64,000 nucleotides of DNA from Sycon ciliatum (Eukaryota; Porifera; Calcarea; Leucosolenida; Sycettidae), in the NCBI RefSeq assembly GCF_964019385.1, contig NC_088655.1, positions 11,043,706 through 11,107,705 of the forward strand. The letters are read 5' to 3'. Numbering within the stretch: the first letter of the stretch is position 1; every line of letters starts with the position of its first letter. The translations under genes and the position numbers were made by a program. Positions 1,761 through 63,180 of the stretch are shown piece after piece. The notes beneath the pieces are model-generated. The model did no database searches. It worked only from the letters and a program-made list of their open reading frames with translations, and was not told where the DNA came from.

Positions 1761-1804
1761 GTTGCCTGACGATCGTAGTAATACGTGAAACTCAGAGTTG
1801 CGAC
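1761..1804 (+). ncRNA. Hammerhead-like ribozyme, U.U variant
   Basis: GTTGC, CTGACGA (1766-1772), U, CGTA-GTAA-TACG, U, GAA, ACTCAGAGT, H17 = T, GCGAC. The core is intact and stem I pairs over 5 positions with one G.T. The usual G-C at the base of stem II is a T/T mismatch. Same architecture as the 50779 and 52970 copies. Confidence 0.55.
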
Positions 1805-13326: not shown

Positions 13327-16300
13327 TTACCTGTCCTTGAGCAGAGATGTGTGATGGAAGTGGGCAACAATGGCCAGGAGTATGCCCACTGCTACATCCG
13401 CCCAAGCAAGACGAAAGCTAGTGTGGTAGTGTCCCACGTGCGACTTGAGAGACCCGCGAGGTATGGACATGAAGCATGCGCACGTCAGTGCAGTGCATAC
13501 AGCTGCGAAAAAGGTAACCACAAGAAAGGGTACGGATATTACCAATAGACGTAGTGTGGTAGCTTCGATATTTGGCCGCCACTTCCATATACCAACTCTT
13601 CGTGCAGGAGCTATTATTAGTGGGTGTAGTGGAGCTTGCGAACCTTATGAAATGTTCTAGCCATCAAAACACAAAAACTTTATAAAAATCGGAGAGATCG
13701 ACTTGCGTACACACCATAATTTAAAACAAATGCGTTATACTTATATTTTCGATACTTTCGGAGCATCCGTTTCATATCTAAAATTTCAATAAAACGAACA
13801 AACACTAATGCACAGAATCCAATAGCGAAAGGCTTCTCTGTGCCTAAAATTTCTGTTCAATAAACCTGGCCTTTTGCACTCATACATTCTCAGACATGAT
13901 CTCTGTAAAATTTATTTCTGCCAATCATTTCATGGAAGCTCTAGTTCGCTTTCGCTGAACCTGGCCCATATCTTGTCCCCATCAAGATTAACTTTTAAAA
14001 GGTAATTGCTCTTTCAACTTACAATTGGTATAATATTGCTACACGGCCCTACCTGCAGCAAAGAACACTATGCGCGGTGTCTTGAGCAGTGTGCGCGATG
14101 AAGATGTTTCACACTCCACCACCATGCTCATGACTGCTCCCATCACCACCAGAACCAGAGCCAAGAGGCTGAACGCCTGAGCAGCACACAGTGCGCCTGC
14201 CATATACAGTTCGGGCAAATGGAGAACACAATCAATTCTGAGATAATCTTAATTCCAAGGACTGGAGAAAATACCTCATCACCGAGATTCTCTGGCCTTT
14301 TGGCCAAGACGCCAGCGTATATTTCTGGCTTCAACAGGCAGGCATAAAGGTCGTGTCTTCCATTTCCGGATAAAGTAGCGTGAGAGTCAAAAACTTTGAA
14401 GGCTCAGCATAATGCACCCTCGATAATTATTTTGACTGTTATCACACGAAGTTGATTGTTCCAAGTAGGAACACACGCTTCTTGCCCAACTTGACACTGT
14501 CAAGTGTCAAGTGTCAAGTTCGGCAAGAAGCGTGTGTTCCTAATTGGAACAATCAACTTCATGACTATTACCGCCGAAGTCGCAACTTCTAAGTTCGTAT
14601 TATTACACCATGGTAAAATAAAAATTTAATAATATTATTATAAAGTACTATCCAATTTCAAGGACAATGCACTATATGATTTCTGTCCTTTGACTTGGTA
14701 CCACCAGAATTCTAGGACATTGGCAATGCGGCACAATTTGTATGTATTTTCTATAGTCGTAACGTAGGCCTTGGCGGATAATTCCTGCAGAAAAATTGGC
14801 AAACATTCGGTACTTTTTCTGGTAGGTTTAATGCATGTTTGGTATGTGGATAAAGAAATGGAGCAGAATTCGAGGAATTGCCAGCCATAAGGTGTGTATG
14901 GTTCTGCCAAATTCACTGCATTTCGAGCATTCTCCGCCAAGGCATAGTCGTAAGTGCCCTTCACTGAGGTTTCACTGGCATCTTTCAGTACCTTATTGTA
15001 AGCAGCAAAATACCATGCATATGATGAATTATTTTCCTTTGCATTCGAAAATTATTAATTTGTATGTACATGTTTGTATGTACCCAATGCTGTAGACAGC
15101 AAGCTGTTTCGGCCATAAAGGCCTCATCAGTACAGCTACGAGCTAAATAGGCCGAGCTACCAGCCATGGTGCAAAGGAGGCACCACAGACATTAAGGTAG
15201 CTCGTCGCTCTAGCGCCAGAGTGCTCAAACTACAAAATGTAGCGGGCTGTTTGTATGTATGTATAACTCATTATCACAAGGTGATCGTAGAGGCATTAAT
15301 CAGCGAGAGAATTGTGAATGATGTCTCTGAATCCAACTCTATCGTGTGCTGCATGAGAGAGAGCATGCAAGGGAAGACCCGTCCAACTTTTAATGTTAGA
15401 AATCCATGATGTCGCGGGCCTTCCTCTCGGTCGAGATCCAGGAGTTGATCCTTGCAGGAAGGGCTTGGAGAAAACGTCATGTCTCGTAACATGGCCAAAC
15501 CTCATCAACTTAAATTTCTTGACTTCGTTCGCTAGCCGCATCCTTGCTCCGATGATGTCATTGATTTTTCCAGGATAGATTGGTTGGTACGCCGGTCGTA
15601 GTATGTTACTCCTAAGAGTCGGCGGAAGCATTTCATCTCGAAGGATGAATTTCTTCTCATTGATGAGGCAGATAATGTCCAAGATTGGCATCCGTATAAA
15701 ACAGTCGCTAGCACAATAGACCTAACAACACGAAATTTAGTCGGCAAAGATAGTGATGGCGATTTCCAAATGAATTGAAGCTCAATGATCTTTTGCTTCC
15801 CTAGTGCTAAGCGTCTTCTTATCTCCACATCGGACCTGCCATCCGACGTGATTACGGCACCTAAGTATTTAAACTGGGACACCTCTTCTATTCGCTCATT
15901 GCCTACTTGAAACTATTAATTTTACAGATGTATTATTTCCGGATTCATTGACCAGCTTTGCAGTGTATTGCATTACTCCATTTTTTTGTCCCTAAAAGAG
16001 GCTCAACTACAATTAATCAGGATTAAACAACGTAAACTAACTAGCTTACTCGGTATGTTCTTGAATGGGAAGGTGACGAAATAGTTGTAACAGACCTTCC
16101 GGCCTACGAACGGCTCACTGAAGTCATCGTCACCGCTGTTGAAGCCCGACAGGCACATCTGCCACAGTCCGTATTCAGTGGTTCCCTTTCCAAAGTCTCC
16201 AAACCTGTTCTCCACAATCTCCCACTTAGGAAGGACTGGATGTGAATGAAGAAACAACAGACAACGACGCAAGCCACTGCAGTAATGTTATACACTACAG

Positions 16301-33559: not shown

Positions 33560-36500
33560 ATGGAGCTTGAGAGGAGAATATTAGTACTTCGGAATGCCCT
33601 GATCCTCTGCGTGCTGCTCGCCTTCATATTCATGATTGTTGCGGAAGGTTAGAAATTGCAATGCGTGATCATGCTTGTTCGCTTTCTCCTTCCGTACTGT
33701 AAAATGTAAATATAATTATTGTATTGGAAAGTAAAGTAAAAGTAAATTATCGTGTCCGTTCCCGAAGGGAACTCACGACGGCCGCTAACACCCGGTAAAC
33801 CCTAGCGGCAGATGCAGCGCCTAACGGTGGGGGTGAGTTATTGGAAAGACCGTTATGCAATATTTACGCATTCATGCAACGAGGTACATGTATATTATAT
33901 GAAAAATATCATGGTTGGCAAAACAAAGTACCCGTCTTAGTACCATGATGCTGGTCAAAGTCAGCTTGGCAATGGTCCGTAACATGTGGGCAAATCTATT
34001 CGGTCGTGTCCGTGAGTTTTGTTTCGTATCACAGCATTTGGTTGCAATTGGTTGACTTATGAGCCCACTCTTCAATCACCTGCCCACCAAGCATTCCAGC
34101 CGCTATTTTGGGTGTACCTATATTTTCGGCAATTTTACTCGTAGGTACATCTGTTTTGTACCACACTATTTCCATAGCTGTGCAAACACTGACACACATC
34201 CTCCTCTTGGTGACTGCTTCTCTGTATCTTCATTTAAAATGTCTGTTCACCGACATTGGTCGTGTTCTCCTAAACCGAAATGTTTTGTGCGCCTACATTT
34301 CCTGAAATAGAGTACACCAGTCGTTGAAGATTCGGCAACATAGGGCTCAACAAAATATCGTCTTGAGGTCTGTTCTGCGTTGGCTAGCAGAGTTTGGTTG
34401 GACACGTACATGCTCATGTATCTGTGTGGTCTATTTCGGTGATTACATTTTGCCGCAGCTTCTACCACATGGTTCGACAACACGTTCATGGACCGAGAAT
34501 CTGTGGGGAGGTTTCGCTTCGACGAGCTATGGATAGCAAGGAGCGGTCTGTGGCGCCACTGCCGGGGCCTGCAAACTTTCCCCGACACGATATTCGCACG
34601 GGAGGTGACGTGTAGAAAATATGACTCCGCTGCAAGAGGTTTTACAGGTAATTCATAAAGGTATTACACACAGCCCCGTAGTTATGGGTTCACGAGGTAC
34701 ATACATTTGAGAATAATATTTAAATAATGATAATTATACGATGCAATTTCAATATTACGTACATGTACATGGTACACTGACTTGTCAGTTTGAGCACTCT
34801 GGCAAGGTACGTTCGGGCCTGATTGGAAATTTTTATTTTCATTGCTATCATGTTCGGCCTCATTTCCTCTGTGCTGCGCTGATGAGTTCACAAAGAACGA
34901 AACAGCATGCTGTCCGCAGATTGAGTGTACATGGTACATGTACATGTACGACAAATCATATGCTAACACATTGAATGACCATTGTGCCAAAGGTACACGT
35001 ATGTCCCCCGAAGCTCCACTTGACTCACGACAGATGCACGCTAGCTATAGCTTCATTTGGAAGGAATTTCGCTCGAGTTTTCCCAGCACTCGAGCACACC
35101 AGAGTGAATTTGAGAACAATGCACTAAATTAATGCGGGGATGAGAAATCAGTGGTTGGGAAGCTTGATAACGAAGTTCATGATCACTACAGGAATAAATC
35201 ATGGTATAGCCGTTTATGCGAAGGTCATTATTGATGTTGATGTTGTTGTTGTATTTTATTTAAAGTCGCACCGCAACCAAGCAACTATGCCTTCTTACAT
35301 GTACATGTACCGGTACATGTAAGCGTGCGACTGAACATGATTGTACATGTATTGTACATGTACATGTACATGTACATGTACAATACATGTATGAAGAAAA
35401 TGCTACGCAATAAATGGAATGGAATGATTGTTGACTAGCGGAGATTGGTAAGATTGTCATGCAACCAGTGGCTGTGGCTGATTCTATTTTTGTCTGCGTT
35501 CGTTTCTCACTCTGTTTTACTATAATGTAGGTTCTCTTCGATCAGCACAAGCCTTTTCGGTGATAGCCGTGTTGCTATTGGGATTCGGTGCAATATGGTC
35601 TGTTTTGCTTGAGCTGAGGATGATCCTGCAGGCAGTGTTCCGGATCCAGGCACCTAGTGCGCATGCGGACACGCTGCAGAAAGTTGCACAGCTTGGACCT
35701 CGTGTGCTGTTTTCCGCTGCTGGTGAGTGCACGCATGGGACAAACTATTCGCAAGCATAATCGCAAGCATGAAAATAATTGGAGTTACAATAACCTTTTG
35801 TTCAACCTTACTTGTAGCCAGCCAGTTATGTGCTCTCAGCGGTGGGTATCATGAGGACAGTATCTGGGAAACACGTCTGTTTAACGCGTAAGGCACGCTG
35901 GGTATGAATCATTTCAAGCGACAGGATGGGCGATAGTCAATGAGAATTCTGCCTGTCGACCCACCCTCATTCTAGTGCCCTATCAATGCGTCACAGCTCG
36001 TTTTCTTTACCCCGACTCCCATTGCTATGATGCTTCTCTTTACCCCGACTCCCATTGCTATGATGCTGCTCTTGTCTATCCTTATCTACGCAATACAACT
36101 TGCTCCGACCAACTACTAGGCATGATGCTCCTCTTAGTCCCAACCCCTGTAATTCTAGATAGTGTCATAGTTTCTCCGTGCATCTTACACGGGCAATCTC
36201 ATATCATGATGTCACTGGCCTGACACAACAACTGAAGAAAAACAAAAATATAAGCGCGCAATCTCATATCATGATGTCACTGGCCTGACACAACAACTGA
36301 AGAAAAACAAAAATATAATTTGTAACACGGAAATTGTGGGCACAAGTTATGCGATCGAGTTCACCAACTGAACCAGATTTTGAGCAGTCGGACGGGCACA
36401 TTCTAACACAAAACTGACAAAGAGTATTGAGACATTTCGTTGGTTAGCGTTATCCAGCAGTGCTCAAGCTGACTTTCATGCTGTGGAATGTCTCAGTACT

Positions 36501-37734: not shown

Positions 37735-40622
37735 GGTGGCAGACGGGTCACAGGCGGGTCAAAAATCGAAAAAATCGAAAGTTGTCAGAATATGTTCATT
37801 GATATCTCAAATGAAAGGTATAGCTCTGTAGTATATGTTACTGAAATTTTAGCATCGTCAGACCTCTCTGTGTGGCACTACAGCCCGTCAAAGTTAGCCC
37901 TTTGCGTTGAAAAATTCAAAATTTGAATTGAGAATTTATTGGAAACACATCCGGCGTAACCTATAGATTTATAGCAGTTCCAGCGGTTTTACGCTGCCAG
38001 GGGAACCATGCTGGTCATTCCTCGTGCGGATGAGCACGAGGACTGATCCACATCAGTTCAGCTGCACAATGTAGCTGGCTCAGGCGTAGGCGTGGGCGTG
38101 CGTGCGTGCTTACAAAAATACTCAACAGTTGTGACCAAATTGTCACGATCGCACTGACTGTTTTTCCGGATGTCCCTCAGCATCTCACGCAAGCATCGTA
38201 AAGGAAGGAAGAAAGGATCATCTAAATTTAGAGGAAATCAGTGGACAAAGAAAGCGGCAGAGACCAGAGCAGCGCCACCTGAAGCTGACGACGTGTTTGA
38301 GGAATTAGATGCAGATGCATCGCACAGAAAGCTCGTAGAATTTTGTTTTGAAAGTGACAGCAGTGCGTCTGACTATAGCAGTTCCGGGAGTGATCAAGAG
38401 GATGGCGAAGAGGCTGGACAGCGGCGGCTAGTTGACATCTCTTGCCTGAACACCTTGATTTCGTCGGCCTTGTGCAGCTCTTGTCAGCAGCCCACGCTGA
38501 GTATTGTTGAAGACCAATTGAAAGGTTTTGTTCCGCATGTCAGTTTGCAGTGTGCCTCATGTGGTGAAACCGTAACTCAGGCTCTTGGTGTAAAGGGAAT
38601 ACAAGGTCGTCATTATGACGTTAACAGGAGAGCTGCACTGGCTATGAGATGCATCGGAAAAGGGTACTCCGCAATGACGACGCTATTTGGCATTCTTGGA
38701 TTGCCGCGTCCCATGTCCAAGAGCACATACTATGAGCACAGCAGTGTTATGTGCTCCAGTATTGAAGCAGTGGTTCAGCAAAGCATGTTGAAGGCAGCTG
38801 AGCAGGCTACTCTTAGTAATCCAGATACAGATCACCCAGACCAAGTTGCTGTGACGATTGACGGCACCTGGATGAAACGTGGGTTTTCAAGTCGGTACGG
38901 CATGGTGTTTGCTATTTCGTGGGAGACGGGCCAAGTTCTGGATTTCTGTGTTCTGAGCAAACATTGCAGTAGCTGCCAGCGTTGGAGGTCCGACAGGCGT
39001 TCTGGCAAAGTCTCCCAGGCAGAATTTGAAGCGTGGAGTGCGGATCATGTGTGCGACGTCAATACTGCTGCTTCATCTCCGGCAATGGAAACTGAAGGTG
39101 TAGTGACACTGTTCAATCGCTCAGTCGCTACCAGGAAACTGATGTACACCACATACATTGGTGATGGTGACAGTAAAGGCTTCCAGGCAGTTGTCAATGC
39201 CAAGCCATACGGAGACGTAGAGATCACGAAGGAGGAGTGTGTCGGGCATGTGTCGAAGCGCCTGGGCAAGGCATTGCGTGAACTCAAGAAGAAGAAAACA
39301 CCGCTGAGTGATGGAAAGCCGCTTAGTGGTCGAGGGCGCCTGACAGATGATCTATGCGACTCACTGCAAACATATTATAACTTAGCCATCAGGAATGGCG
39401 CTCAACTACCTGGCGACCCAATCACTAACATGGCACGACTCGTTTGGGCGTCAATTTGCCACCGGGCTTCTACGGATGCAAAGCCAATGCACCAGTTCTG
39501 CCCAACAGATGATGATAGCTTTTGCAAGTGGCAGCAGTGGAAGGCTGGGAAAGCACCACCATATGTTCATCGAAATCCCATACCATCTGCAGTGTTTGAA
39601 GCCGTCAAGCCGATATATCAACGGCTAGCGGACAAGCCACTCTTGGAGCGCTGCCGACGTGGAGCCACCCAAAACCAAAACGAAGCTCTGAATGGTTTGG
39701 TGTGGCAGTATTGCCCAAAGACTGGTTTCTGTGGCGTTGAAACTGTCAAGGCATCTGCTGGACTTGCTGTCATCAAGTTCAACCACGGCTCCAAGATGTT
39801 TGAGCGTGTTCTTGAAGAAATGGGCTGCGCTACGTCCCGCAGCACCTCGACTAGGCTATCATGCATGGATGCTGATCGCCTGTATTTCTCCAAGAGAAAG
39901 CACTCCACAGCAGAGAAAGAGGCTAGGAAAAGAAGAAGAAGAGTCAGGAAGGGTCTGGAGGAGGATACAATGGAGGAAGAGGGAGTCACCTATGCTTCTG
40001 GTGGCTTTTGAGCAGCTTTCGAGTGGAAAATGTAGTTGAGAACACTTAGTTTAGATAGCAGAATATTCCTGTTTTTTGCCCTATTCCGGCACTTTGGGAC
40101 ACTCTTTGACTGTTGAGACTCAGTTTTAGGTATAGAAAACTATACATTTTTGGAAACTGTGGTGCATTTGTGTCATCATGGACCACAGTTTACGCCGAAA
40201 GTTCCTACTGCAATGGATTTTTGTTCCATTGAAATGTACCTTATCTATGCGCGATCGGACATTTATGACTTGATCGGTGGCTAGGCTGATTGTTTTAGCT
40301 TTTGGACCAAGTTGTTTTGGTCCATGATACTTTCAATAGCCAGTAGGTTACTCTTGGATCTTTTTTTGACAGGTTGTTGTGATTTACGTTGTTGTATTTT
40401 TGTCCCGAAGTTCGGCTATTTTTCGCCCGTCATCTGGGAAATTTGGTTGACGGTGAAATGATGATCAACAAACACAGCTCATTGGGTAGTGTCCTATCTG
40501 AAATCTGTTCGTATAAGGATTCAGTGTTGAAAATTTGAAGTGAATCCATTGATTTGTACCCAAGTTATGCTCGATGAAGCTCGTTTGAGTCTGAAAAAAG
40601 GTCGCGAAACCAGTCTGCCACC
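37735..40622 (+). mobile_element. TTAA-flanked DNA transposon (Kolobok/Mutator-like), apparently intact
   Basis: The element starts GGTGGCAGAC at 37735 and ends GTCTGCCACC at 40622, a perfect 10-bp terminal inverted repeat. Each end abuts TTAA (37731-37734 and 40623-40626), a 4-bp target duplication. It encloses one long intronless transposase gene (38170-40011). TTAA duplications are known for Kolobok and piggyBac. The transposase does not look like piggyBac but like the animal family usually labelled 'Mutator-like transposase', so I favour a Kolobok-type assignment. It landed just 3' of gene D. Confidence 0.85.
38170..40011 (+). CDS. DDE transposase, animal Mutator-like/Kolobok-like family
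   Basis: 613 aa, single exon, no frame damage. The N-terminus is basic (RKHRKGRKKG), followed by an acidic Ser-rich stretch (about 70-100). A C4 zinc ribbon follows (CSSC near 115, CASC near 140). The core has IDGTWMKRGFSSRYG (D231), KHCSSC, YIGDGDSKGF (D332/D334), EECVGH (E355-H360) and TQNQNEALNGLVW (E505). I take D231, D332 or D334, and E505 as the DDE triad from the spacing; this is inference. The C-terminus is a basic RKRRRRVRK tract, a likely nuclear localisation signal. The protein would bind the 10-bp TIRs and cut at TTAA. Start chosen as the first ATG before the basic tract. Confidence 0.85.
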   Translation: MSLSISRKHRKGRKKGSSKFRGNQWTKKAAETRAAPPEADDVFEELDADASHRKLVEFCFESDSSASDYSSSGSDQEDGEEAGQRRLVDISCLNTLISSALCSSCQQPTLSIVEDQLKGFVPHVSLQCASCGETVTQALGVKGIQGRHYDVNRRAALAMRCIGKGYSAMTTLFGILGLPRPMSKSTYYEHSSVMCSSIEAVVQQSMLKAAEQATLSNPDTDHPDQVAVTIDGTWMKRGFSSRYGMVFAISWETGQVLDFCVLSKHCSSCQRWRSDRRSGKVSQAEFEAWSADHVCDVNTAASSPAMETEGVVTLFNRSVATRKLMYTTYIGDGDSKGFQAVVNAKPYGDVEITKEECVGHVSKRLGKALRELKKKKTPLSDGKPLSGRGRLTDDLCDSLQTYYNLAIRNGAQLPGDPITNMARLVWASICHRASTDAKPMHQFCPTDDDSFCKWQQWKAGKAPPYVHRNPIPSAVFEAVKPIYQRLADKPLLERCRRGATQNQNEALNGLVWQYCPKTGFCGVETVKASAGLAVIKFNHGSKMFERVLEEMGCATSRSTSTRLSCMDADRLYFSKRKHSTAEKEARKRRRRVRKGLEEDTMEEEGVTYASGGF

Positions 40623-43854: not shown

Positions 43855-44235
43855 CCTAATCACAGCCCGCCGCGCGAAGCGCGAAGGGCTGTGATGTAGG
43901 CTGATCGAACATGAGTACGAGTGTTTTGATTGCATTTCTGACATGCACCCGCGCTTGAAACTCATATCGGACTTGTAAATACTTCGCGAAGGGCTGTGAT
44001 TGGCTGATAGAACGTGAACACGACTGTTTTGATTGGATTTCTGACCAGAACACGCACTTCGATCTTCCTATCGCGCTTGAAAGCACGACTGTCAACCTTC
44101 TCGAGCCGGAGTCAAGTAAAAAAAAAGCGAGCTTGATCAGTGAATCAAAGCCCTAGTGGAGCGGGCTTTGATCGTAAAATCAAAGCCCGCCTGGGCGGGC
44201 TTTGATGGGAAAATCAAAGCCCGCTCCACTAAATA
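43855..44235. repeat. Palindrome-rich repeat (GGCGGGCTTTGAT hairpins)
   Basis: Starts with CACAGCCCGCCGCGCGAAGCGCG, a strong GC hairpin, and ends with four alternating copies of AATCAAAGCCCGC and its complement (44144-44230). An inverted relative occupies 54085-54485. Confidence 0.65.
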
Positions 44236-44985
44236 TGGAGTTCTACTTCTTGTAGCATGCTTTGATGTCCTCATCTAGGCCCTGCTAGGTGCAATGCGAT
44301 TGGTCATCTCCGTGCCTACAGTCTTGTGACATGTCAGAAAACACTATTGATCGACGAGACACATCGCCGCCACGGCAAACACTTCATAAAGACACATGTA
44401 GGGGCAGACGGAGTACAGAATGATCACACGGACACGACACATGCACGTCAGAGTGCATTCTTGTACGTACAGATGCAGGAAGTAATAGATAACTAGTAAA
44501 CCGTTCTCAATAACTGAGGCCAGTGAGGGTGCGTTTACACGACAACGCTGGACCAGTTACTGTACTCGATCTCCGTACAGACACAACATGCGCTTAGAGC
44601 CATTGTAAAATTTAATTGTAAAACATCGTGTCATGACGGCGTTGTTGATGCCATAATTCCAGGGAAAATCGCACTACTGCTTGCTCTGCTGCCAACACAA
44701 GCGTAGACTCGTCAAGATGACACATGATCATCCTACCAACACCCACTGACATTCATCCCGCTCTATCTAGCTCTACAAAGTACTAATAATCACGCTGCAC
44801 CGGAATGCGTGTGGATCAGACATCTACCAACGCCACTGTCCTAGGCTGCAGTATTGGGTATTCATTGGCGCTACGTGAAGCGGGCTGTTTACATGTATGG
44901 TTGTGCATGTACAGGTACAAGCATTAGCACAAGTACATGTATGTACATGACTGTACACCTAGTACCCGATGCTGTACTGCAGTGT

Positions 44986-45030
44986 AGTGTAGACAGCAAG
45001 CTGTTTCGGCCATAAATGCCCCAACATGTA
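44986..45030 (-). ncRNA. Decayed hammerhead copy upstream of gene G
   Basis: Minus strand keeps GGCCGAAACAGCTTGCTGTCTAC, here given by parts (GAAAC, stem III, GTC), identical to the 15089 ribozyme, but CTGATGA has become TGTTGGGG and stem II is mismatched. It cannot fold an active core. It is about 340 bp before exon 1. Confidence 0.6.
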
Positions 45031-45358
45031 CATGTACATGTATGTCGAGAAGAAACACTGCAGAGTGTGTGCTCTAGTTTGTATTCTCTTACTTTTCCCA
45101 ACGCATCCCGGAAAGTATCCTCTGATCCAGACTCACCTACCAGAGTTCAGGGCTAAAGAAGAACGATCACGATGTACATCTACATATATATGTAGCTCTT
45201 TGCACACGTCCTCTTGTGTCCTTCGCCGATAAAAAGAGAATAGCAAGCGGTTTTCCGAAGCAGTTAGCCATCGCTTGCAATCACCAGTGGATACATTGTG
45301 GTTGACAAAAACGTATGTTTATCAGGCGCTGGTATTATTATTCTTTGCCGGAAAAAAG

Positions 45359-48829
<3,471 letters not shown>

Positions 48830-50778: not shown

Positions 50779-50825
50779 TCCATCTGATGATCCGTTGCTT
50801 GAACGGTGAAACACTGTGTAATGGA
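50779..50825 (+). ncRNA. Hammerhead-like ribozyme, U.U variant
   Basis: TCCAT, CTGATGA (50784-50790), T, CCGTT-loop-AACGG, T, GAA, ACACTGTGT, H17 = A at 50820, ATGGA. Stem I 5 bp, stem II 5 bp, stem III 3 bp. The base of stem II is T/T. Confidence 0.55.
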
Positions 50826-52969: not shown

Positions 52970-53014
52970 TTCGCCTGATGATTGCACACAGTGCATGAAA
53001 CTCGGAGTAGCGAA
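52970..53014 (+). ncRNA. Hammerhead-like ribozyme, U.U variant
   Basis: TTCGC, CTGATGA (52975-52981), T, TGCAC-ACA-GTGCA, T, GAA, ACTCGGAGT, H17 = A at 53009, GCGAA. Stem I can extend through AATAT/ATATT after a bulged G. The base of stem II is T/T as in the two relatives. Confidence 0.57.
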
Positions 53015-53719: not shown

Positions 53720-53765
53720 CCTCTACTGATGAGCTCCGACAGGGAGCGAAACAGCTGTCTAGAGG
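53720..53765 (+). ncRNA. Type I hammerhead self-cleaving ribozyme (canonical)
   Basis: Stem I CCTCTA (53720-53725), CTGATGA (53726-53732), stem II GCTCC/GGAGC with loop GACAG, GAA, stem III ACAGCTGT, C17 at 53759, TAGAGG (53760-53765). The six stem I and five stem II pairs are all perfect. Cleavage is predicted after 53759. Confidence 0.87.
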
Positions 53766-53999
53766 CGTGGAGCAATAATTATTATCTCTCAACGGAAGTG
53801 TCCTTGCTGGTGTCTGTATGGTTCGGCTGAAGAGCGCGTGGTTGTGATGAGTTGGGAATGCAATGAATTGTTTTTCCAGAAGTGAGGAAAATCACGTGAA
53901 CTTACCACGTCCATGTTTGCAAGTTGTATGAAAGCAACCTGCATGTACATGAACATGTACATGATTGTAAAAACCATGATTGTACATTCTGACATGTCA

Positions 54000-54490
54000 C
54001 AAAACTGTAGGCACGGAGATGACCAATCGCATTGCACCTGGCAGGGCCTAGATGAGGCGATCAAGGCATGCTACAAGTAGTTGAACTCCATATCTAGTGG
54101 AGCGGGCTTTGATTTTTCCCAAAAAAACGAGGCGGGCTTTGTAATTATTTTACGATCAAAGCCCGCTCCACTAGGGCTTTGATTCACTGATCAAGCTCGC
54201 TTTTTTTACTCGACTTCGGCTCGAGAAGGTTGAGAGCCATGCTTTCAAGCGCTATAGGAAGATCGAAGTGCGAGTTCATGTCCTAAATCCAATGAAAACA
54301 GTCGTGTTCATGTTCTATCAGGCAATCACAGCCCTTGGCGAAATATTTACAAGTTATTTTTTAGTTCTACATGAGTTTCAAGCGTGGGTGCATATCAGAA
54401 ATTCAATTTTAAAAAACACTCCTCGTGTTCGATCAGCATGCATCACAGCCCTTCGCGCTTCGCGCGGCGGGCTGTGATTTGGCGATCTCA
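54000..54490. repeat. Inverted copy of the GGCGGGCTTTGAT palindrome repeat
   Basis: Reverse complement of 43855-44290, including GCCCTTCGCGCTTCGCGCGGCGGGC at 54439-54470 (described by position) and the CTAGTGGAGCGGGCTTTGAT blocks near 54094 and 54160. Confidence 0.65.
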
Positions 54491-55973
54491 CACTCGTACT
54501 CTTGCTGGATTCCATACTGTAAGTTCACGTGATTTTCCTCACTTATGGTGAAGTACAATCATGTACATGTAGTGAATACGCCACAGCGAACGCATGAACC
54601 CTATTGAGTTCATGTAACGCTACAGAAGTACGTAGTTCAGAATAATCACACAATACATCCTCGTGATCAATTGTGTCGGAAGGACATTCACCACATCATG
54701 AGAATGAAGCTTTGGCAAGGTACATGTACATGTACATGCACTTGTACAGTACATGTAACTGCACTCTTGCATTCTGTGATCAACGCCTGCCGACCCGAAC
54801 TTGTTTTGCACCCTTCCGGTGTGCTAGGAAGACTCATTTGTGTGTGGACAAGTAAATTAGTGTTCGTCGTAATTACATGTACATGTGTACAATAGTCATA
54901 TACATGTGCATGACCCTGTGCTTGGCTCTAAATGCACATGCACATGTGTACATGTGTCACTTGCTAATCTCCCGCACTAGTAGTAGCAGACTACCTTGAA
55001 TACATTTTCGCCGTTAACCCTGACTGGCCTGAGCACCCTTCTAAGACGTCCTTGGACTCTGTTGGGATTGCGCTTCCTCGCACAGTAAATTGTATGGAAA
55101 CAAATCGTAAATTGCAATATTTATGGACAGGTTCATGTACACGGCTGCTTAATTTCGAGTCGGTTTAAACGCACTGTTGTTAATTCGACATATTTGCAAT
55201 CCGTTTAGCCATCTATTCTGCGCCCCACTGGTGACAGCTAACAAGCACGAAACAACTACAAATGTACATGTCCACAGCTGTCAAGAGCAAAGCTGTCCAC
55301 AGCTGTCCAGATATTGAATATTACACAAAAAGCACACCACTGTTCAACCATTGTATTCTTCAAAATGAAAATTGATCAATCTCTTTTCCGAAGATTCCAT
55401 GACACTCTGAAAAGCAGCAATTAAAATAGTTCCACTGCTGACTTTTGTCAAATGAGATCGTTTAAGTACATGCAGGTCAGAGTGCATTCTTGCGACAATA
55501 CACGCACAGTTACAGGAAGTGCTTAATAACTGTACTTGATCTCCGTAAAGCTACACCATCAACACCGAGCCATTGCGTAGATGTAAAACCTCGTGATCAT
55601 GACGGCGTTGTTCACGCCATAATTCCAGGGAAGCCGCACTACTACTCTACTGCCAACACAAGCGTAGATTGGTCTGCAGCAACATGGCACATAATCGTTC
55701 TCCCAACACCCACTGACATTCATCCTGCTCTAGCTCTACCTACACACTAATCACACTGCATAATACCGGTAGTTCTGTGGGAATGCGTGTGGATCAGACA
55801 TCTACATGCACCTACGGTCCTAGGTTACAGTAGGTATTCATTGGCGCTACCTGAAGCGGGCTGCTTCACAAGTAACTGAAGTTGTTTATTATGATTGTGC
55901 ATGTACGGGTGCAAGAATTAGTGCAAGCACAAGTACACGTACATGCACATGAACATGTACATTGTATACTCGA

Positions 55974-56015
55974 TGCTGTAGACAGCAAGCTGTTTCGGCC
56001 ATAAAGGCCCCAGCA
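55974..56015 (-). ncRNA. Decayed hammerhead copy upstream of gene H
   Basis: Stem II (GGCC/GGCC), GAAAC, stem III and GTC/TACAGC are all kept, but CTGATGA is shortened to CTGG, removing the catalytic core. Position relative to gene H matches the gene G copy, so it was carried by the segmental duplication. Confidence 0.6.
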
Positions 56016-56361
56016 TGTACACGGTGTGAGTAAAGTATGTACATGTACATGTGCATGTAGAGTAGGAACAGTGCGGAGTGTGTTCCCTAATGTTTATTCT
56101 CTCACCTTTTCCCAGCGCATCCCCGGAAAGTATCATCTGATCCAGACTCACCTACCACTAGTTCAGGGTCAAAGAAGAACGATCGCGATGAAGATCTACA
56201 CGTAGCTCTTTGCACATGTCCTCTTGTGTCCTTCACCTGTAAAAAGAGCATAGGAAGCGGTTTCCAAAAACAGTTAGCCATTGCTTCCAATCGCCAGTGG
56301 ATACATTGTGGTTGAAAAACCGTATGTTTTTCAGGTGCTGGTATTCGTTGCAGGTAGAAAC

Positions 56362-56833
56362 ATGGCCAACAATCTTATTGTTCCCCTTGTACTGTCGGCG
56401 GTGGTGACGCTCGCGCTCCTCATTACTGTTCATGGTGAGTTGCAGGCTTCAAATATTGCTTCATATAAATATTGCTTCATATACATATACATGTATGTAT
56501 ATTACCTCATTACAACTCAAAATTCTCTAAGTTGTGTCGACATGTGCAGGTACTTGTACATACAAATTCAGGGAGGTTACCGGTATCATTATTTTACTGC
56601 TATTGAGTATCTCACACCGTAGAACTAGTTTCTTGTTCTGTCTGTACGTTATCTGTTTCTACGCCCAGTTGTTCCAAAGTGGTATGAACAGTCGCGAACC
56701 GACAGTACTGTTATCCGAAAACTCGACACCGGGATTTGGCGATTATGTGACGAGCTGAACGTGCCGATAGTTGGTTTCAGCAGCAGGGCGTGCAAAGCGT
56801 TCGACATCACAACACGGAAGATACATGTATACC
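56362..56833 (+). CDS. Gene H: duplicate of gene G, exons 1-2 only in window
   Basis: Exon 1 56362-56434 differs from gene G by one residue in MANNLIVPLVL. Exon 2 56669-56833 encodes VVPKWYEQ, then GIWRLC and a second Cys, with a CGTGAGT donor as in G. Spacing, the poly-G run after the donor (about 56868-56886) and upstream DNA back to about 55450 all match gene G, so this is a segmental duplicate. No exon 3 or 4 is visible to the right, where LINEs occupy 57638-64000. They may lie beyond the window or be lost. Loop 1 has diverged (VIRKLDTGIW versus ELGVRQKLDTGIW) more than TM1. Confidence 0.75.
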
Positions 56834-57637: not shown

Positions 57638-60523
57638 TTACAGGGAATCTGTTGCCCAGTACCAGTTGCTGTCTCTCAGGTGTCCGTAGACCTTTGTCTT
57701 GAATGACTGAAAATGTGTTTTGTGTGGGCGCTGCGACAGCAGCCTGTCAGGAAGGGAGTTCCATGCGCCAATACAGCAGTACGGGAACGACCGCTTCACG
57801 ACGGATGGAGCTGAGACAGGGAGCGTGTCTGACAGTTGATAGGCGTGGCTGGTGGCATTATTGTGCTGGTTCCTGGTTTTGGGGTTGGCTGGAGAAACGC
57901 AATGCGGTGGCAATACAGCAAGTAGCTGAGGAGGACCAGTAATGAAATGCAATTTGTACATGCACGAGAGAGCAGCAACAGTCCGGCGGACAGCCAGACT
58001 CGGGAGAATTGCACCAGGGCCAATGATGCGCAGTGCGCGGCGTTGAACATTATCCAGACGTTGGATGTGTCTGGCTGGCGCGCCCATCCACACAAGCGGG
58101 GCATACTCCATCAGGGGCCTCACGAATGCCTTGTAGACAGTCGTTCGGCCAGCTGGCGTTAGAAAGTGGGCCGCTCGTCGGAGAAAGCCGAGGCGCTGCT
58201 GGGCGCGGATGGTCACGGTCCTGAGGTGATTAGCGAAGGACAATTTGGAGTCAAATCGAACACCAAGCAGTGATATGCTGGTTTCCTCCGGTACAGGGGT
58301 ACCACCAAACAGGATTTGGGGCAGGTCTAGGTCAGTGCGTCGGAGGGAAGCAGTCATAGCCTGTGACTTGCTGGGCTCGAAAGACACTTTCCACCGGCAA
58401 CCCCACTCATGCAGGCGGTTTGTGGATACCTGCAAGGTGTGTGCAGCGTCCCGAGGGCACTGAGCTGAGGATACTAGACTGTATAGTGTCGTATTGTCCG
58501 CGTAGGCCTCAAGCTGAGCATTGCCATCAAGAACATCGGCAGCGTCATTCACGTATATTAGAAACAACGTAGGGCCCAATATACTGCCTTGGGGCACCCC
58601 TGCAGAGATTGGGTAGAGAGAAGAAATCTGACCGCCGACTAAGCACTGGAGTGAACGGCCGTCAAGATAAGACGATAGCCAGCTATGGAGAGTGCCAGTA
58701 ATGCCGAGCTGCCGGACCTTGTAGAGGAGGCCCACGTGGGAGACCCGGTCAAAGGCCCCGGCTATATCGACTGCGAGAATTCGTGCCGCGCCACCTTGGC
58801 CAACGATGTCCACCCAGGCGTTATGATGCGCCTGTAGTGCATCTGCCGTGCCGAGACCTCTACGGAACCCAAACTGGTGGGGAGTGAGGAGCTGCTGGCG
58901 CTCAAGATGGTTCATCAGTTGGCGATTGACAATAGTTTCCATTACTTTGGACATTATGCATAATAACGAGACTGGGCGGTAGTTCTTCAGAACAGAGCGC
59001 GAGGACCGTTTGTGGATCGGTACCACGTTAGCTGTCTTCCAAGATTCTGGTTGAACTCCGCACCTGAAACAGAGAGCGAATAGCTGGGACAAGGGCTTCG
59101 CAAGTTCTTTGGCACACTCTTTCAGGACCCGGGCTGAAATGCCGCCAGGACCAGTCGCCTTTGATATGTCCAGTCGCGCTAGCAGACGGTAGACAGTGGC
59201 GGGGCGAAAATGAACGGCTGCGAGTGCCGGTGCTCCGGTTGCAAAAAGGTCAGGTAAGTCGTCAGAAGTAAGATCCTGGCCAGTGACACTGCACTTCCTG
59301 GAGAAGGTGGCAAAGGCTTCCGATTTCTCATGGCTTGTTGCCAACTCCCGTCCGCCCGCGTCAACAATGAGAGGAATGTCCGTGTTTCGTCCGTCCCCAC
59401 TAGCATACTTTAACTTGGTCCACCATTCTTTGTCCTTCAGTGAGCCCGTGGACAGGCTGTGACGGATACTGGCCTCTTTAGCTTCCTGGGATCGCCTTAG
59501 GATGTTGACGGCTGTGGTAACGGAGCGGAGGAAAGCTTGTTTGAGTGAAAGATCGTTCGGGTGTTTTCTCCAGGAACGCCAACGTTTGTCCTTTTCCCTC
59601 ATAGCAGCTGTACATTCCGGTGTCCACCATTTCGGATCACTCGGCCTCGTGGTAAGTTCCTTAGATGGGACAAACCTGGCTATTGCGCCTCTGATAGTGG
59701 AGGTTACCCGCGCACAGGAGGTGTCCGGGTCATCAGTTATGATGTCGTGCCATGGAGAGTTGCGAAGGAAAGCTCGGAGGCGATGCCAGTCTGCGCTCTT
59801 GTACCGCCAGACAGTTCGCTTTGCTGCAGGCTCGTGGCAAGGTAATATGCCTACGAAGTCAGATAGAACGATAACGTGGTCAGACCGCCCAAGAGGGGGT
59901 GTGGCGGTTGTCAATACTGGGGAGTTGAAGGTAGACATCACGAGGTCAAGGGTATTGTCGCCACGAGTAGGAGTCTGAACATGCTGCGTAAGGAGGTGTG
60001 CGGCACAAGTGTCCTCAAGTGCTTCGCCCGCCGGTGTGGTCTTTGAGCTGTTTAGCCAGGCACGGTTGTGAACGTTAAAGTCCCCAGCAAGAATGAGACT
60101 AGCGCCGTGTTGACGGGCCAAAGGAAGGGTGTCGTCGAGATGATGGATAAAAGAGAGGTCACCGGGCCCGCAAGAACCCGGCCGGTAGACACCTCCCAGG
60201 ACAATCTTGTGCCCGGCGCTGAGCTGGATGGATACCCACAAGACTTCATGCTGGGGGGCGGCCAGTTCATCGATGATCAAGGCTGGGAGAGTAGATCGCA
60301 CCCAGATTGCAACTCCACCACCGTGTGCTGTGCGGTCAAGCCTTAATGGAGGGCTATAGCCCGGGAATATCGTGTCCGACACTTGGACCTTCTCTGTTGT
60401 GAACTTTGTTTCGGTTACCACTGCGACGTCAGGGTTGTGCTGTAGCAACGCGTGCTGGAAGTCGCCTAACTTGCTACTTAACCCGAACGCATTTGTGCAC
60501 AAGAGGCGAAATGGAGCAACCAT
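57638..60523 (-). CDS. LINE ORF2: AP endonuclease / reverse transcriptase (copy 1)
   Basis: 961 aa, uninterrupted. The N-terminal endonuclease has AGDFNVHNRAW and SDHVIVL. The RT has NYRPVSLL, HQFGFRRG, DIAGAFDRV, AGVPQGSILGPTLF and, at the catalytic loop, YADN, where copy 2 has YADD (base 58495). The C-terminus carries the usual LINE thumb motifs (LGVRFDSKLSF, AFVRPLMEYAPLVW, RRALRIIG). The domain order and motifs place it in the jockey/CR1/L2 group. A 3-bp deletion removes one Phe of the FATFF stretch seen in copy 2. The Asp-to-Asn change predicts a catalytically dead RT. Likely 3' UTR continues to about 57300 with an AATAAA near 57330. Confidence 0.88.
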   Translation of the reverse strand: MVAPFRLLCTNAFGLSSKLGDFQHALLQHNPDVAVVTETKFTTEKVQVSDTIFPGYSPPLRLDRTAHGGGVAIWVRSTLPALIIDELAAPQHEVLWVSIQLSAGHKIVLGGVYRPGSCGPGDLSFIHHLDDTLPLARQHGASLILAGDFNVHNRAWLNSSKTTPAGEALEDTCAAHLLTQHVQTPTRGDNTLDLVMSTFNSPVLTTATPPLGRSDHVIVLSDFVGILPCHEPAAKRTVWRYKSADWHRLRAFLRNSPWHDIITDDPDTSCARVTSTIRGAIARFVPSKELTTRPSDPKWWTPECTAAMREKDKRWRSWRKHPNDLSLKQAFLRSVTTAVNILRRSQEAKEASIRHSLSTGSLKDKEWWTKLKYASGDGRNTDIPLIVDAGGRELATSHEKSEAFATFSRKCSVTGQDLTSDDLPDLFATGAPALAAVHFRPATVYRLLARLDISKATGPGGISARVLKECAKELAKPLSQLFALCFRCGVQPESWKTANVVPIHKRSSRSVLKNYRPVSLLCIMSKVMETIVNRQLMNHLERQQLLTPHQFGFRRGLGTADALQAHHNAWVDIVGQGGAARILAVDIAGAFDRVSHVGLLYKVRQLGITGTLHSWLSSYLDGRSLQCLVGGQISSLYPISAGVPQGSILGPTLFLIYVNDAADVLDGNAQLEAYADNTTLYSLVSSAQCPRDAAHTLQVSTNRLHEWGCRWKVSFEPSKSQAMTASLRRTDLDLPQILFGGTPVPEETSISLLGVRFDSKLSFANHLRTVTIRAQQRLGFLRRAAHFLTPAGRTTVYKAFVRPLMEYAPLVWMGAPARHIQRLDNVQRRALRIIGPGAILPSLAVRRTVAALSCMYKLHFITGPPQLLAVLPPHCVSPANPKTRNQHNNATSHAYQLSDTLPVSAPSVVKRSFPYCCIGAWNSLPDRLLSQRPHKTHFQSFKTKVYGHLRDSNWYWATDSL

Positions 60524-60626
60524 GGAAGAAACAACAAGAAATAAACGAAAAGCTAAAAAATACCAAAATGTAAACCTAGAGCTAAAGTTCTTAAAAACAA
60601 AAAAGTCCTGAACGTGTTTCTAAGAT

Positions 60627-63077
60627 TTAAAAACGCCAAGTGTTCTGCTTGCTGCCAGCTGGACCCTTTCTCTTTTTCTTTCTTCCACGGACTTCGGTGA
60701 ATTCGGTTTCAGCTGAGGGGGAGGTCGAGCTTCGCTGCCGTTTGCTGTTGGTGCCTGCTTTGCTGTTGCTCTTAGCGCAGTCAGCCAGTAGGGCCATTGC
60801 TCTGTCTTCGTCACTAGCAGGATCACAGTGGGCCAGAGACGTGGTGGGGTCAGGCTGCGGTGGGGAGGGGGTGGGGGTTCCTCCATCTGACTCCTCAGCC
60901 CAGCTGCTGTCGGGAGACAGAGCTAGAGTGAAGTCCGGCTCACCTTCAGTGCGTCCCACTGAGGCAGATTCGGGTTCCCTGGATGCAGGGTGTGCAGCGT
61001 CCCGAGGGCACTGAGCTGAGGATACTAGACTGTATAGTGTCGTATCGTCCGCGTAGGCCTCAAGCTGAGCATTGACATCAAGAACATCGGCAGCGTCATT
61101 CACGTATATTAGAAACAACGTAGGGCCCAATATACTGCCTTGGGGCACCCCTGCAGAGATTGGGTAGAGAGAAGAAATCTGACCGCCGACTAAGCACTGG
61201 AGTGAACGGCCGTCAAGATAAGACGATAGCCAGCTATGGAGAGTGTCAGTAATGCCGAGCTGCCGGACCTTGTAGAGGAGGCCCACGTGGGAGACCCGGT
61301 CAAAGGCCCCGGCTACATCGACTGCGAGAATTCGTGCCGCGCCACCTTGGCCAACGATGTCCACCCAGGCGTTATGAAGCGCCTGCAGTGCGTCTGCCGT
61401 GCCGAGACCTCTACGGAACCCAAACTGGTGGGGAGTGAGGAGCTGCTGGCGCTCAAGCTGGTTCATCAGTTGGCGATTGACAATAGTTTCCATTACTTTG
61501 GACATTATGCATAATAACGAGACTGGGCGGTAGTTCTTCAGAACAGAGCGCGAGGACCGTTTGTGGATCGGTACCACGTTAGCTGTCTTCCAAGATTCTG
61601 GTTGAACTCCGCACCTGAAACAGAGAGCGAATAGCTGGGACAAAGGCGTCGCAAGTTCTTTGGCACACTCTTTCAGGACCCGGGCTGAAATGCCGTCAGG
61701 ACCAGTCGCCTTTGATATGTCGAGTCGCGCTAGCAGACGGTAGACAGTGGCGGGGCCAAAATGAACGGCTGCGAGTGCCGGTGCTCCGGTTGCAACAAGG
61801 TCGGGTAAGTCGTCAGAAGTAAGATCCTGGCCAGTGACACTGCACTTCCTGGAGAAGAAGGTGGCAAAGGCCTTCGATTTCTCATGGCTTGTTGCCAACT
61901 CCCGTCCGCCCGCATCAACGATGAGAGGAATGTCCGTGTTACGTCCGTCCCCACTAGCATACTTTAACTTGATCCACCATTCTTTGTCCTTGAGTGAGCC
62001 CGTGGACAGGCTGTGACGGATACTGGCCTCTTTAGCTTCCTGGGATCGCCTTAGGATGTTGACGGCTGTGGTAACGGAGCGGAGGAAAGCTTGTTTGAGT
62101 GAAAGATCGTTTGGGTGTTTTCTCCAGGAACGCCAACGTTTGTCCTTTTTCCTCATAGCAGCTGTACATTCCGGTGTCCACCATTTTGGATCACTCGGCC
62201 TCGTGGTAAGTTCCTTAGATGGGACAAACCTGGCTATTGCGCCTCTGATAGTGAAGTTTACCCGCGCACAGGAGGTGTCCGGGTCATCAGTTATGATGTC
62301 GTGCCATGGAGAGTTGCGAAGGAAAGCTCGGAGGCGATGCCAGTCTGCGCTCTTGTACCGCCAGACAGTTCGCTTTGATGCAGGCTCGTGGCAAGGTAAT
62401 ATGCCTACGAAGTCGGATAGAACGATAACGTGGTCAGACAGCCCAAGAGGGGGTGTGGTGGTTGTCAATACTGGGGAGTTGAAGGTAGACATCACGAGGT
62501 CAAGGGTATTGTCGCCACGAGTAGGAGTCTGAACATGCTGCGTAAGGAGGTGCGCGGCACAAGTGTCCTCAAGTGCTTCGCCCGCCCGTGTGGTCTTAGA
62601 GCTGTTTAGCCAGGCACGGTTGTGAACGTTAAAGTCCCCAGCAAGAATGAGACTAGCGCCGTGTTGACGGGCCAAAGGAAGGGTGTCGTAGAGATGATGG
62701 ATAAGTGAGAGGTCACCGGGCCCGCAAGAACCCGGCCGGTAGACACCTCCCAGGACAATCTTGTGCCCGGCGCTGAGCTGGATGGATACCCGCAAGACTT
62801 CATGCTGGGGGGCGGCCAGTTCATCGATGATCAAGGCTTGGAGAGAAGATCGCACCCAGATTGCAACTCCACCACCGTGTGCTGTGCGGTCAAGCCCGAA
62901 TGGAGGGCTATAGCCCGGGAATATCGTGTCCGACACTTGGACCTTCTCTGTTGTGAACTTTGTTTCGGTTACCACTGCGACGTCAGGGTTGTGCTGTAGC
63001 GACGCGTGCTGGAAGTCGCCTAACTTGCTACTTAACCCGAATGCATTTGTGCACAAGAGGCGAAATGGAGCAACCAT
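60627..63077 (-). CDS. Chimeric LINE ORF: ORF2 (EN + RT to YADD) fused to ORF1 C-terminus (copy 2)
   Basis: 816 aa open frame. Residues 1 to about 690 are ORF2, nearly identical to the neighbouring copy and with an intact YADDTTLY. At about 61000-60985 it leaves ORF2 after CPRDAAH and enters the last ~120 codons of ORF1 (REPESASVGRTEGEP... to KQNTWRF), in frame. The RT thumb and 3' UTR of this copy and the first part of the next copy's ORF1 are missing. The next ORF2 (60523) follows after the normal 104-bp gap. This is the product of a deletion between tandem copies. Confidence 0.85.
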   Translation of the reverse strand: MVAPFRLLCTNAFGLSSKLGDFQHASLQHNPDVAVVTETKFTTEKVQVSDTIFPGYSPPFGLDRTAHGGGVAIWVRSSLQALIIDELAAPQHEVLRVSIQLSAGHKIVLGGVYRPGSCGPGDLSLIHHLYDTLPLARQHGASLILAGDFNVHNRAWLNSSKTTRAGEALEDTCAAHLLTQHVQTPTRGDNTLDLVMSTFNSPVLTTTTPPLGLSDHVIVLSDFVGILPCHEPASKRTVWRYKSADWHRLRAFLRNSPWHDIITDDPDTSCARVNFTIRGAIARFVPSKELTTRPSDPKWWTPECTAAMRKKDKRWRSWRKHPNDLSLKQAFLRSVTTAVNILRRSQEAKEASIRHSLSTGSLKDKEWWIKLKYASGDGRNTDIPLIVDAGGRELATSHEKSKAFATFFSRKCSVTGQDLTSDDLPDLVATGAPALAAVHFGPATVYRLLARLDISKATGPDGISARVLKECAKELATPLSQLFALCFRCGVQPESWKTANVVPIHKRSSRSVLKNYRPVSLLCIMSKVMETIVNRQLMNQLERQQLLTPHQFGFRRGLGTADALQALHNAWVDIVGQGGAARILAVDVAGAFDRVSHVGLLYKVRQLGITDTLHSWLSSYLDGRSLQCLVGGQISSLYPISAGVPQGSILGPTLFLIYVNDAADVLDVNAQLEAYADDTTLYSLVSSAQCPRDAAHPASREPESASVGRTEGEPDFTLALSPDSSWAEESDGGTPTPSPPQPDPTTSLAHCDPASDEDRAMALLADCAKSNSKAGTNSKRQRSSTSPSAETEFTEVRGRKKKRKGPAGSKQNTWRF

Positions 63078-63180
63078 GGAAGAAACAACAAGAAAAAAAC
63101 GAAAAGCTAAAAAATACCAAAATGTAAACCTAGAGCTAAAGTTCTTAAAAACAAAAAAGTCCTGAACGTGTTTCTAAGAT

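Follow-up and report, generated by a model that had tools for sequence, protein, structure and literature searches.

Metazoan non-LTR retrozymes, as characterized in the accessible text of Cervera and de la Pena (2020, PMC7229834) and of a later review (PMC7761336), carry a type I hammerhead in units of ~170-400 nt, form short tandem arrays in which no LTR is seen, are flanked by target duplications of >4 bp and are predicted to give a self-paired circle. The Sycon family described here has the hammerhead, the unit size, the arrays without LTR and the duplications in common with them, and its predicted circle may be self-paired as well. Those texts already name Penelope-like elements (PLEs) as likely movers of retrozymes, with priming by target DNA as one possibility; the sections available leave the machinery and the priming unproved, and the review states that the repeats contain no motif from which their partner could be recognized. 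PLEs with minimal hammerheads resemble the Sycon family in having a type I hammerhead close to their fixed 3' end, an internal start of reverse transcription, an optional tail and AT-rich targets (accessible parts of PMC11167929, PMC6155905 and PMC7761336). Two further systems are comparable within what their sources make available. The Sm-alpha satellite of S. mansoni is also a non-autonomous repeat with a type I hammerhead (PMC6155905), a likeness drawn from its description alone. The amniote C10orf118 and RECK hammerheads (PMC3088659; HH9 in Rfam) are type I ribozymes in introns that were suggested to descend from a repeat.

We analyzed a 64-kb stretch of the Sycon ciliatum genome ("the window"; C14:11043706-11107705) that contains a hammerhead, H1, in a probable intron of a claudin-like gene. 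We are highly confident that H1 belongs, as its ribozyme, to a metazoan non-LTR retrozyme, a truncated copy of which lies in the intron. Its family is a further instance of these known elements. By analogy with the published systems, complete units, 228 bp long in A1 and 237 bp in A2, would be transcribed as multimers, which would be cut by their own hammerheads and closed into circles, and the circles would be reverse transcribed from a nicked target. Of this cycle, we observed the genomic arrays, the copy ends and the target duplications.

H1 is the 3' end of a 149-bp insertion between two copies of a 13-bp repeat (Table 1). Aligned with the 228-bp unit that is repeated in tandem array L024, positions 34775-34925 agree at 147 of 151 nt. 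Inside the ribozyme there is a single difference, in loop II, and the H1 variant of that loop also occurs in 10 of the 68 intact fetched copies. The insertion ends in ATTGAG, 11 nt beyond the cleavage site, and the duplication starts at that point (+11) with TG rather than TA as its first bases. Outside the ribozyme, H1 and a second window copy, H2, have a 17-nt box in common (AGTTTGAGCACTCTGGC), which ends 75 and 84 nt before the respective cores. These comparisons suggest that H1 is a little-diverged and probably young insertion that has lost its 5' part.

Table 1. Hammerheads, retrozyme insertions and host intron in the window
Feature	Position	Strand	Basis or remark
H1, type I hammerhead ribozyme	34874..34919	+	core and stems seen in sequence
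H1 stem I, 5 bp	34874-34878/34915-34919		
H1 core CTGATGA	34879-34885		
H1 stem II, 4 bp	34886-34889/34895-34898		
H1 GAA	34899-34901		
H1 stem III, 4 bp	34902-34905/34910-34913		
H1 C17	34914		expected cleavage after 34914
A1 retrozyme insertion with H1, 5'-truncated, 149 bp	34777..34925	+	match to L024 unit
Target-site duplication, left copy, 13 bp, TGTACATGGTACA	34764..34776	.	flank repeat
Target-site duplication, right copy, 13 bp, TGTACATGGTACA	34926..34938	.	flank repeat
Probable intron 2 of claudin-like gene, host of H1 insertion	34648..35530	+	GT at 34648, AG ending at 35530; phase-1 junction
H2, A2 retrozyme insertion, 5'-truncated	15083..15247	-	intact hammerhead 15135-15090
H3, intact minimal hammerhead, loop-less palindromic stem III (ACAGCTGT)	53721..53764	+	strict descriptor
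H4, retrozyme hammerhead relic without CTGATGA	55976..56022	-	three-hammerhead covariance model
H5, retrozyme hammerhead relic in the duplicated segment of H4	44987..45033	-	three-hammerhead covariance model
B1, minimal hammerhead, U.U at stem II base, second family	1761..1804	+	looser descriptor
B2, minimal hammerhead, U.U at stem II base	50779..50825	+	looser descriptor
B3, minimal hammerhead with U.U	52970..53014	+	flanks match terminal sequence of Penelope-like elements L088/L097

We searched the whole genome (538 Mb, 313 contigs) for the stem III motif CGAAACAGCNTGCTGTC and found 2,895 places, with 0 for the reversed control; a pattern for the intact core gave 2,290 places (control 0). 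These copy numbers rule out a unique intronic ribozyme. The genome mean is ~0.34 motif places per 64 kb, compared with 4 in the window (H1, H2, H4 and H5). Among 86 fetched motif places, 68 keep the CTGANGA core and 63 keep stems I and II as well. Some fetched places are tandem arrays with a 228-bp unit or with variant units of 229 and 237 bp, and spacing within the arrays of the first fetched set (66 insertions) was 228 bp (14 cases), 229 bp (3), 237 bp (2) or 92 bp (1). Arrays reach 5 units with one hammerhead per unit; most sampled loci are single (53/66), and H1 and H2 are single and truncated. By eye, we saw no LTR in units and flanks. Compared with 100 shuffles, the reference units are predicted to fold better as circles (z -2.57 for A1, -2.79 for A2), with 69% (A1) and 62% (A2) of bases paired. 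At the family level, then, we found tandem units within 150-450 bp bearing one hammerhead each, target duplications of >4 bp and no LTR. The GC content is 47.8% for A1 and 53.2% for A2; the A2 value departs from the <50% given for metazoan retrozymes in the accessible literature. Pattern scans of viral contigs and of genome contigs, in collections without animal genomes, gave 0 matches each and are little informative.

Copy ends were read from 66 insertions and a later set of 25, all of which, apart from H1 and H2, lie in about 0-50 Mb of one contig, C1. Some duplicated loci among the 66 are counted repeatedly (at least five groups have flanks in common: L013/L014, L036/L037, L008/L040/L060, L018/L072 and L074/L078). 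The 3' ends were set by ungapped extension, a procedure to which copies cut short in or after the search motif are invisible. The match to the unit ended 12-15 nt beyond the cleavage site in 37/46 A1 and 13/20 A2 copies, and exactly at +13 in 27/46 A1 copies. The later set behaved in the same way (+13 in 12/15 A1; 13-15 nt in 8/10 A2). By this measure, 16 of the 66 and 4 of the 25 copies had their 3' end elsewhere than at 12-15 nt. Target duplications of >=7 nt flanked 20 of 50 scorable copies (H1 included) versus 1.7% for mispaired flanks, and 5 of 14 versus 0.4% in the later sample; the other 30/50 and 9/14 had no duplication of that length. Low-complexity flanks had removed 9/59 copies, and later 7/21, before this count, and 4 of the 25 later copies were left out for unusable ends. 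When low-complexity cases, H1 and H2 are included, 13 of the 25 listed duplications start at +11. The two bases after the element were T and A in 31/35 A1 copies each and in 12/15 and 13/15 A2 copies, and TA followed 12/14 A1 and 7/9 A2 copies in the later sample. Because the unit itself also continues with TA, these bases may come from the template or from the target.

The 5' ends of the 66 C1 insertions were scattered over the unit. Taken together, the 91 insertions comprise 65 that fall short of one unit and 26 that span about one to five units, three of the latter (L032, L120, L122) reaching the fetched edge. A 5' end within ~3 nt of the cleavage site was seen in 1/91 insertions (L122, at the edge) and in 0/57 of the first set; in the later set 1/21 lay near the cleavage point, at unit position 225. 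Five of the 26 long insertions (L070, L113, L116, L119 and L129) start at unit position 11-17, so that counted back from the fixed 3' end they cover very nearly 1 or 5 whole laps.

A shared 3' end with variable 5' ends, these lengths and the duplications fit target-primed reverse transcription that starts internally on circular or multimeric RNA. A linear monomer released by self-cleavage would have its ends at the cleavage site; the end positions suggest a template that had probably been left uncut at that point or closed. Might the template instead be a linear multimer transcribed from an existing array, with reverse transcription again starting internally? We consider this quite possible, though we lean against it. 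The fixed 3' end within the unit and the multi-unit copies fit it equally well as a circle, and the anole PLE starts internally in vitro and uses unprocessed RNA (accessible text of PMC11167929). However, 5' ends do not cluster at the cleavage point, and lengths are mostly non-integer and reach 5 units in a family for which most of the arrays sampled are single; both observations are mild evidence for circles. The precise 3' end 11-13 nt beyond the cleavage site followed by TA, the 5' truncation and the PLE neighbors are features that the available portions of PMC7229834 and PMC7761336 do not describe. Our literature search, conducted on titles and the beginnings of abstracts with supplements and most subscription papers outside it, found no description of a fixed retrozyme 3' end.

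Hammerheads with a U.U at the base of stem II belong to a separate repeat, with 446 genome places for one pattern (control 0). From this list we chose eight loci (L097-L104) with two close places on opposite strands. At each locus the two hammerheads point away from each other, one at either end, at distances of up to 2.3 kb; three of the loci (L097, L099 and L104) have an ORF between the inverted pair. The L099 ORF contains the motifs YRDD, CxC..CPLRGxC and YIGS..FKxRxxNH, from which we take it to be Penelope-like. Searches of Pfam and PDB with the PLE ORF returned nothing useful, and NCBIfam gave for the L099 ORF only a retron reverse transcriptase (E 0.034), PLE not being recognized. Genome-wide, the ORF is matched at least 79 times, with 78 of 3,091 first-look candidates scored, and many of the matches stay open for >700 codons. 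Rfam at E up to 0.1 did not report the hammerheads of L097 and L099; a variant in L087 and L104 with a normal U-A at the stem II base supports the U.U motifs as true hammerheads. At their 3' ends the PLEs either terminate with GTTGACAT(G) or run on into a tail, and the accessible text of PMC11167929 reports the same two outcomes at the fixed end of an anole PLE. PLEs are protein-coding, whereas retrozyme units of 228/237 bp are far too short for such an ORF. The retrozyme ribozyme, with its looped 4-bp stem III and normal stem II, is also unlike the minimal hammerheads of PLEs. Beside PLEs, at 1082 (+) of L135 and 3890 (-) of L136, we saw another hammerhead variant (CTGAAGAGTGC..GCAC), perhaps of a different element.

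We examined 14 PLE loci (L097-L103 and L134-L140, 44.4 kb in all; L133 is L099 again, and L104, of another subfamily, was left out), a non-random set of seven best protein matches and seven chosen inverted pairs. Retrozyme DNA was present in 7 of the 14, and five of these seven held 15 exact motif places versus 0.24 expected from the genome mean. PLE and retrozyme lie tail to tail in L135, L137, L100 and L101, and the junctions of the first three have a TA- or TATG-rich tract between both 3' ends. The two are co-oriented in L139, a retrozyme pair sits next to the PLE in L138, and ~680 bp separate them in L136. In the loci seen, both kinds of end carry hammerheads and often abut TA-rich tracts. 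Among loci selected for retrozymes, only 4/106 contained DNA matching the PLE reference, with at least one short doubtful match (L028). We considered L137 as a one-event, head-to-head PLE/retrozyme hybrid and rejected this; a TA tract separates the two, and the locus reads as two serial insertions.

The least that follows from this adjacency is a shared choice of target; it may also reflect shared machinery. We tentatively propose, with confidence that falls a little short of even, that the Sycon retrozymes are moved by the PLE reverse transcriptase of the same animal. The enzyme would cut TA-rich DNA, often TA or TACATG microsatellites, the nicked TA would pair with UA of the circular RNA 12-13 nt past the cleavage site, and copying would run round the circle for anything between part of a lap and five laps. 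The hammerhead would make the circle, and copying would start at the outer 3' strand of that ribozyme's stem I. Mobilization by a LINE is, in our judgment, unlikely without being far-fetched. LINE copies also show 5' truncation, a fixed 3' end and target duplications that vary, H2 lies directly behind the truncated 3' end of a LINE, and PLE-matching DNA is scarce at retrozyme-selected loci. Against a LINE stand the retrozyme DNA in half of the PLE loci, with four tail-to-tail cases, and the hammerhead-bearing ends at TA-rich tracts that PLEs and retrozymes have in common. The question of the mover is directly testable in a genome that combines 2,895 motif places with a sharply defined 3' end, target duplications that can still be read and PLEs close by.

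What does the insertion mean for its host gene? The translation of joined exons 2 and 3 contains GLWxxC and has a weak Pfam match to Claudin_2 (E 0.067, 13.4 bits; cut-off 29.1), and pieces of two later probable exons had no match. Together with the splice signals, this weak match makes the intron 2 call plausible. The initial annotation had placed H1 in sense orientation within an intron of this gene, which our results support for a probable intron. That H1 is special to the gene is not supported: its family has many copies, and H1 arrived by insertion of a mobile element that left a 13-bp target duplication. Cleavage within an intron need not stop splicing. The claudin-like pre-mRNA would probably be cut in an intron that is removed anyway, and from a single truncated copy without a second ribozyme we would expect neither unit-length RNA nor a circle. 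H1 may affect splicing or release a small RNA, as the initial annotation suggested, but a role in splicing is unsupported, and in the sequence we saw no sign of selection for H1 in intron 2. A co-opted intronic ribozyme comparable to RECK/C10orf118, selected to tune claudin-like splicing, seems very improbable: the core is intact, sense and intronic, and the best Rfam match is the HH9 family, but the motif has 2,895 genome places, and its closeness to an array unit (4 differences over 151 nt) together with a clean 13-bp duplication argues for a fairly recent insertion. The amniote hammerheads, by contrast, are conserved at their own loci across mammals (PMC3088659, in its accessible part), whereas H1 is a little-diverged repeat copy. 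As regards the claudin-like gene, the retrozyme insertion is probably ordinary.

The ribozyme itself is complete. H1 reads CTGCG-CTGATGA-GTTC(ACAAA)GAAC-GAA-ACAG(CATG)CTGT-C^CGCAG with all core positions canonical, and shows the type I pattern CUGANGA..GAA..UH with three helices and an open stem I, confirming the core bases and stems of the initial annotation. A strict descriptor matched the window three times (34879+, 53726+ and 15130-) and matched simulated 64-kb windows 4, 2 and 0 times per 300 for Markov orders 1, 2 and 3. Across the three strict hammerheads, 38/38 scorable pair cells are standard pairs and 5/13 pairs have both-sided changes; sliding the partners lowers pairing to <=52.8%. 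Rfam did not match H1 at the gathering score. Its best match was RF02275 Hammerhead_HH9 at 24.1 bits (cut-off 52), the E value being 4.8e-4 when a 221-base stretch was searched and 0.14 over the whole window. Such a score had been named in advance as grounds for refutation, and formally H1 falls under that rule. However, HH9 gives the hammerheads of tandem arrays L024 and L015 only 27.9-32.6 bits, and RF00008 (cut-off 48.5) gives only 25.9 bits to the hammerheads of L066, a 237-bp array; because array copies fail too, the cut-off does not discriminate here and the rule is uninformative. The unconstrained minimum-energy fold of an 80-nt H1 piece is not the hammerhead (-20.3 versus -15.8 kcal/mol, in a model outside which tertiary contacts lie), the array unit has a similar energy gap, and a 150-nt piece folds no better than shuffles (z -0.08). 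Judging from its sequence, H1 is likely competent to cleave itself. A chance match to the hammerhead consensus, for which only the sub-threshold Rfam score speaks, is negligible in view of the simulations, the paired changes and the genome-wide copies with a control of zero.

Beyond H1, the window contains three more retrozyme copies (two of them dead), one unplaced minimal hammerhead and three of the second family; in total, six cores are intact within the 64 kb. We built a covariance model from the three strict hammerheads, which it recovers by construction; beyond these it picks up H4 (41.7 bits), H5 (33.4 bits) and, at 20.8 bits, 52970-53014. A looser version of the descriptor tolerates one mismatch at the stem II base and adds 1766+, 50784+ and 52975+, all with U.U there; in 200 simulated windows it found 1 and 2 loci in all under two background models. 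Rfam over the window at E up to 10 reported none of B1, B2 and B3. H2 is of the 237-bp type and is flanked by TACATACAAACA repeats (15259-15248 and 15082-15071), which are low-complexity and so weak as a duplication. We saw no flank that H3 has in common with A1 or A2; for B2 no shared flank was found. The segments bearing H5 (44559-45450) and H4 (55529-56451), both on the minus strand, align over 966 columns at 76.5% identity. Because H4 and H5 both lack CTGATGA, their ribozyme was probably dead before the segment was duplicated.

Other repeats lie in the window. At 57641-63173 (-), two neighboring tandem LINE ORFs of 993 and 848 aa have very similar N-terminal halves, and the 993-aa ORF has RVT_1 and endonuclease domains. 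An open Mutator-like transposase ORF of 617 aa occupies 38158-40008 (+). A long near-perfect inverted repeat at 14468-14540 is matched on both strands by the mir-2363 model, below its cut-off, and looks more like a small transposon hairpin than a microRNA. Finally, a repeat bearing ATCAAAGCCCGC...GCGGGCTTTGAT units is present at both 43867-44339 and 53987-54470, on opposite strands, with 86% identity over 494 columns.
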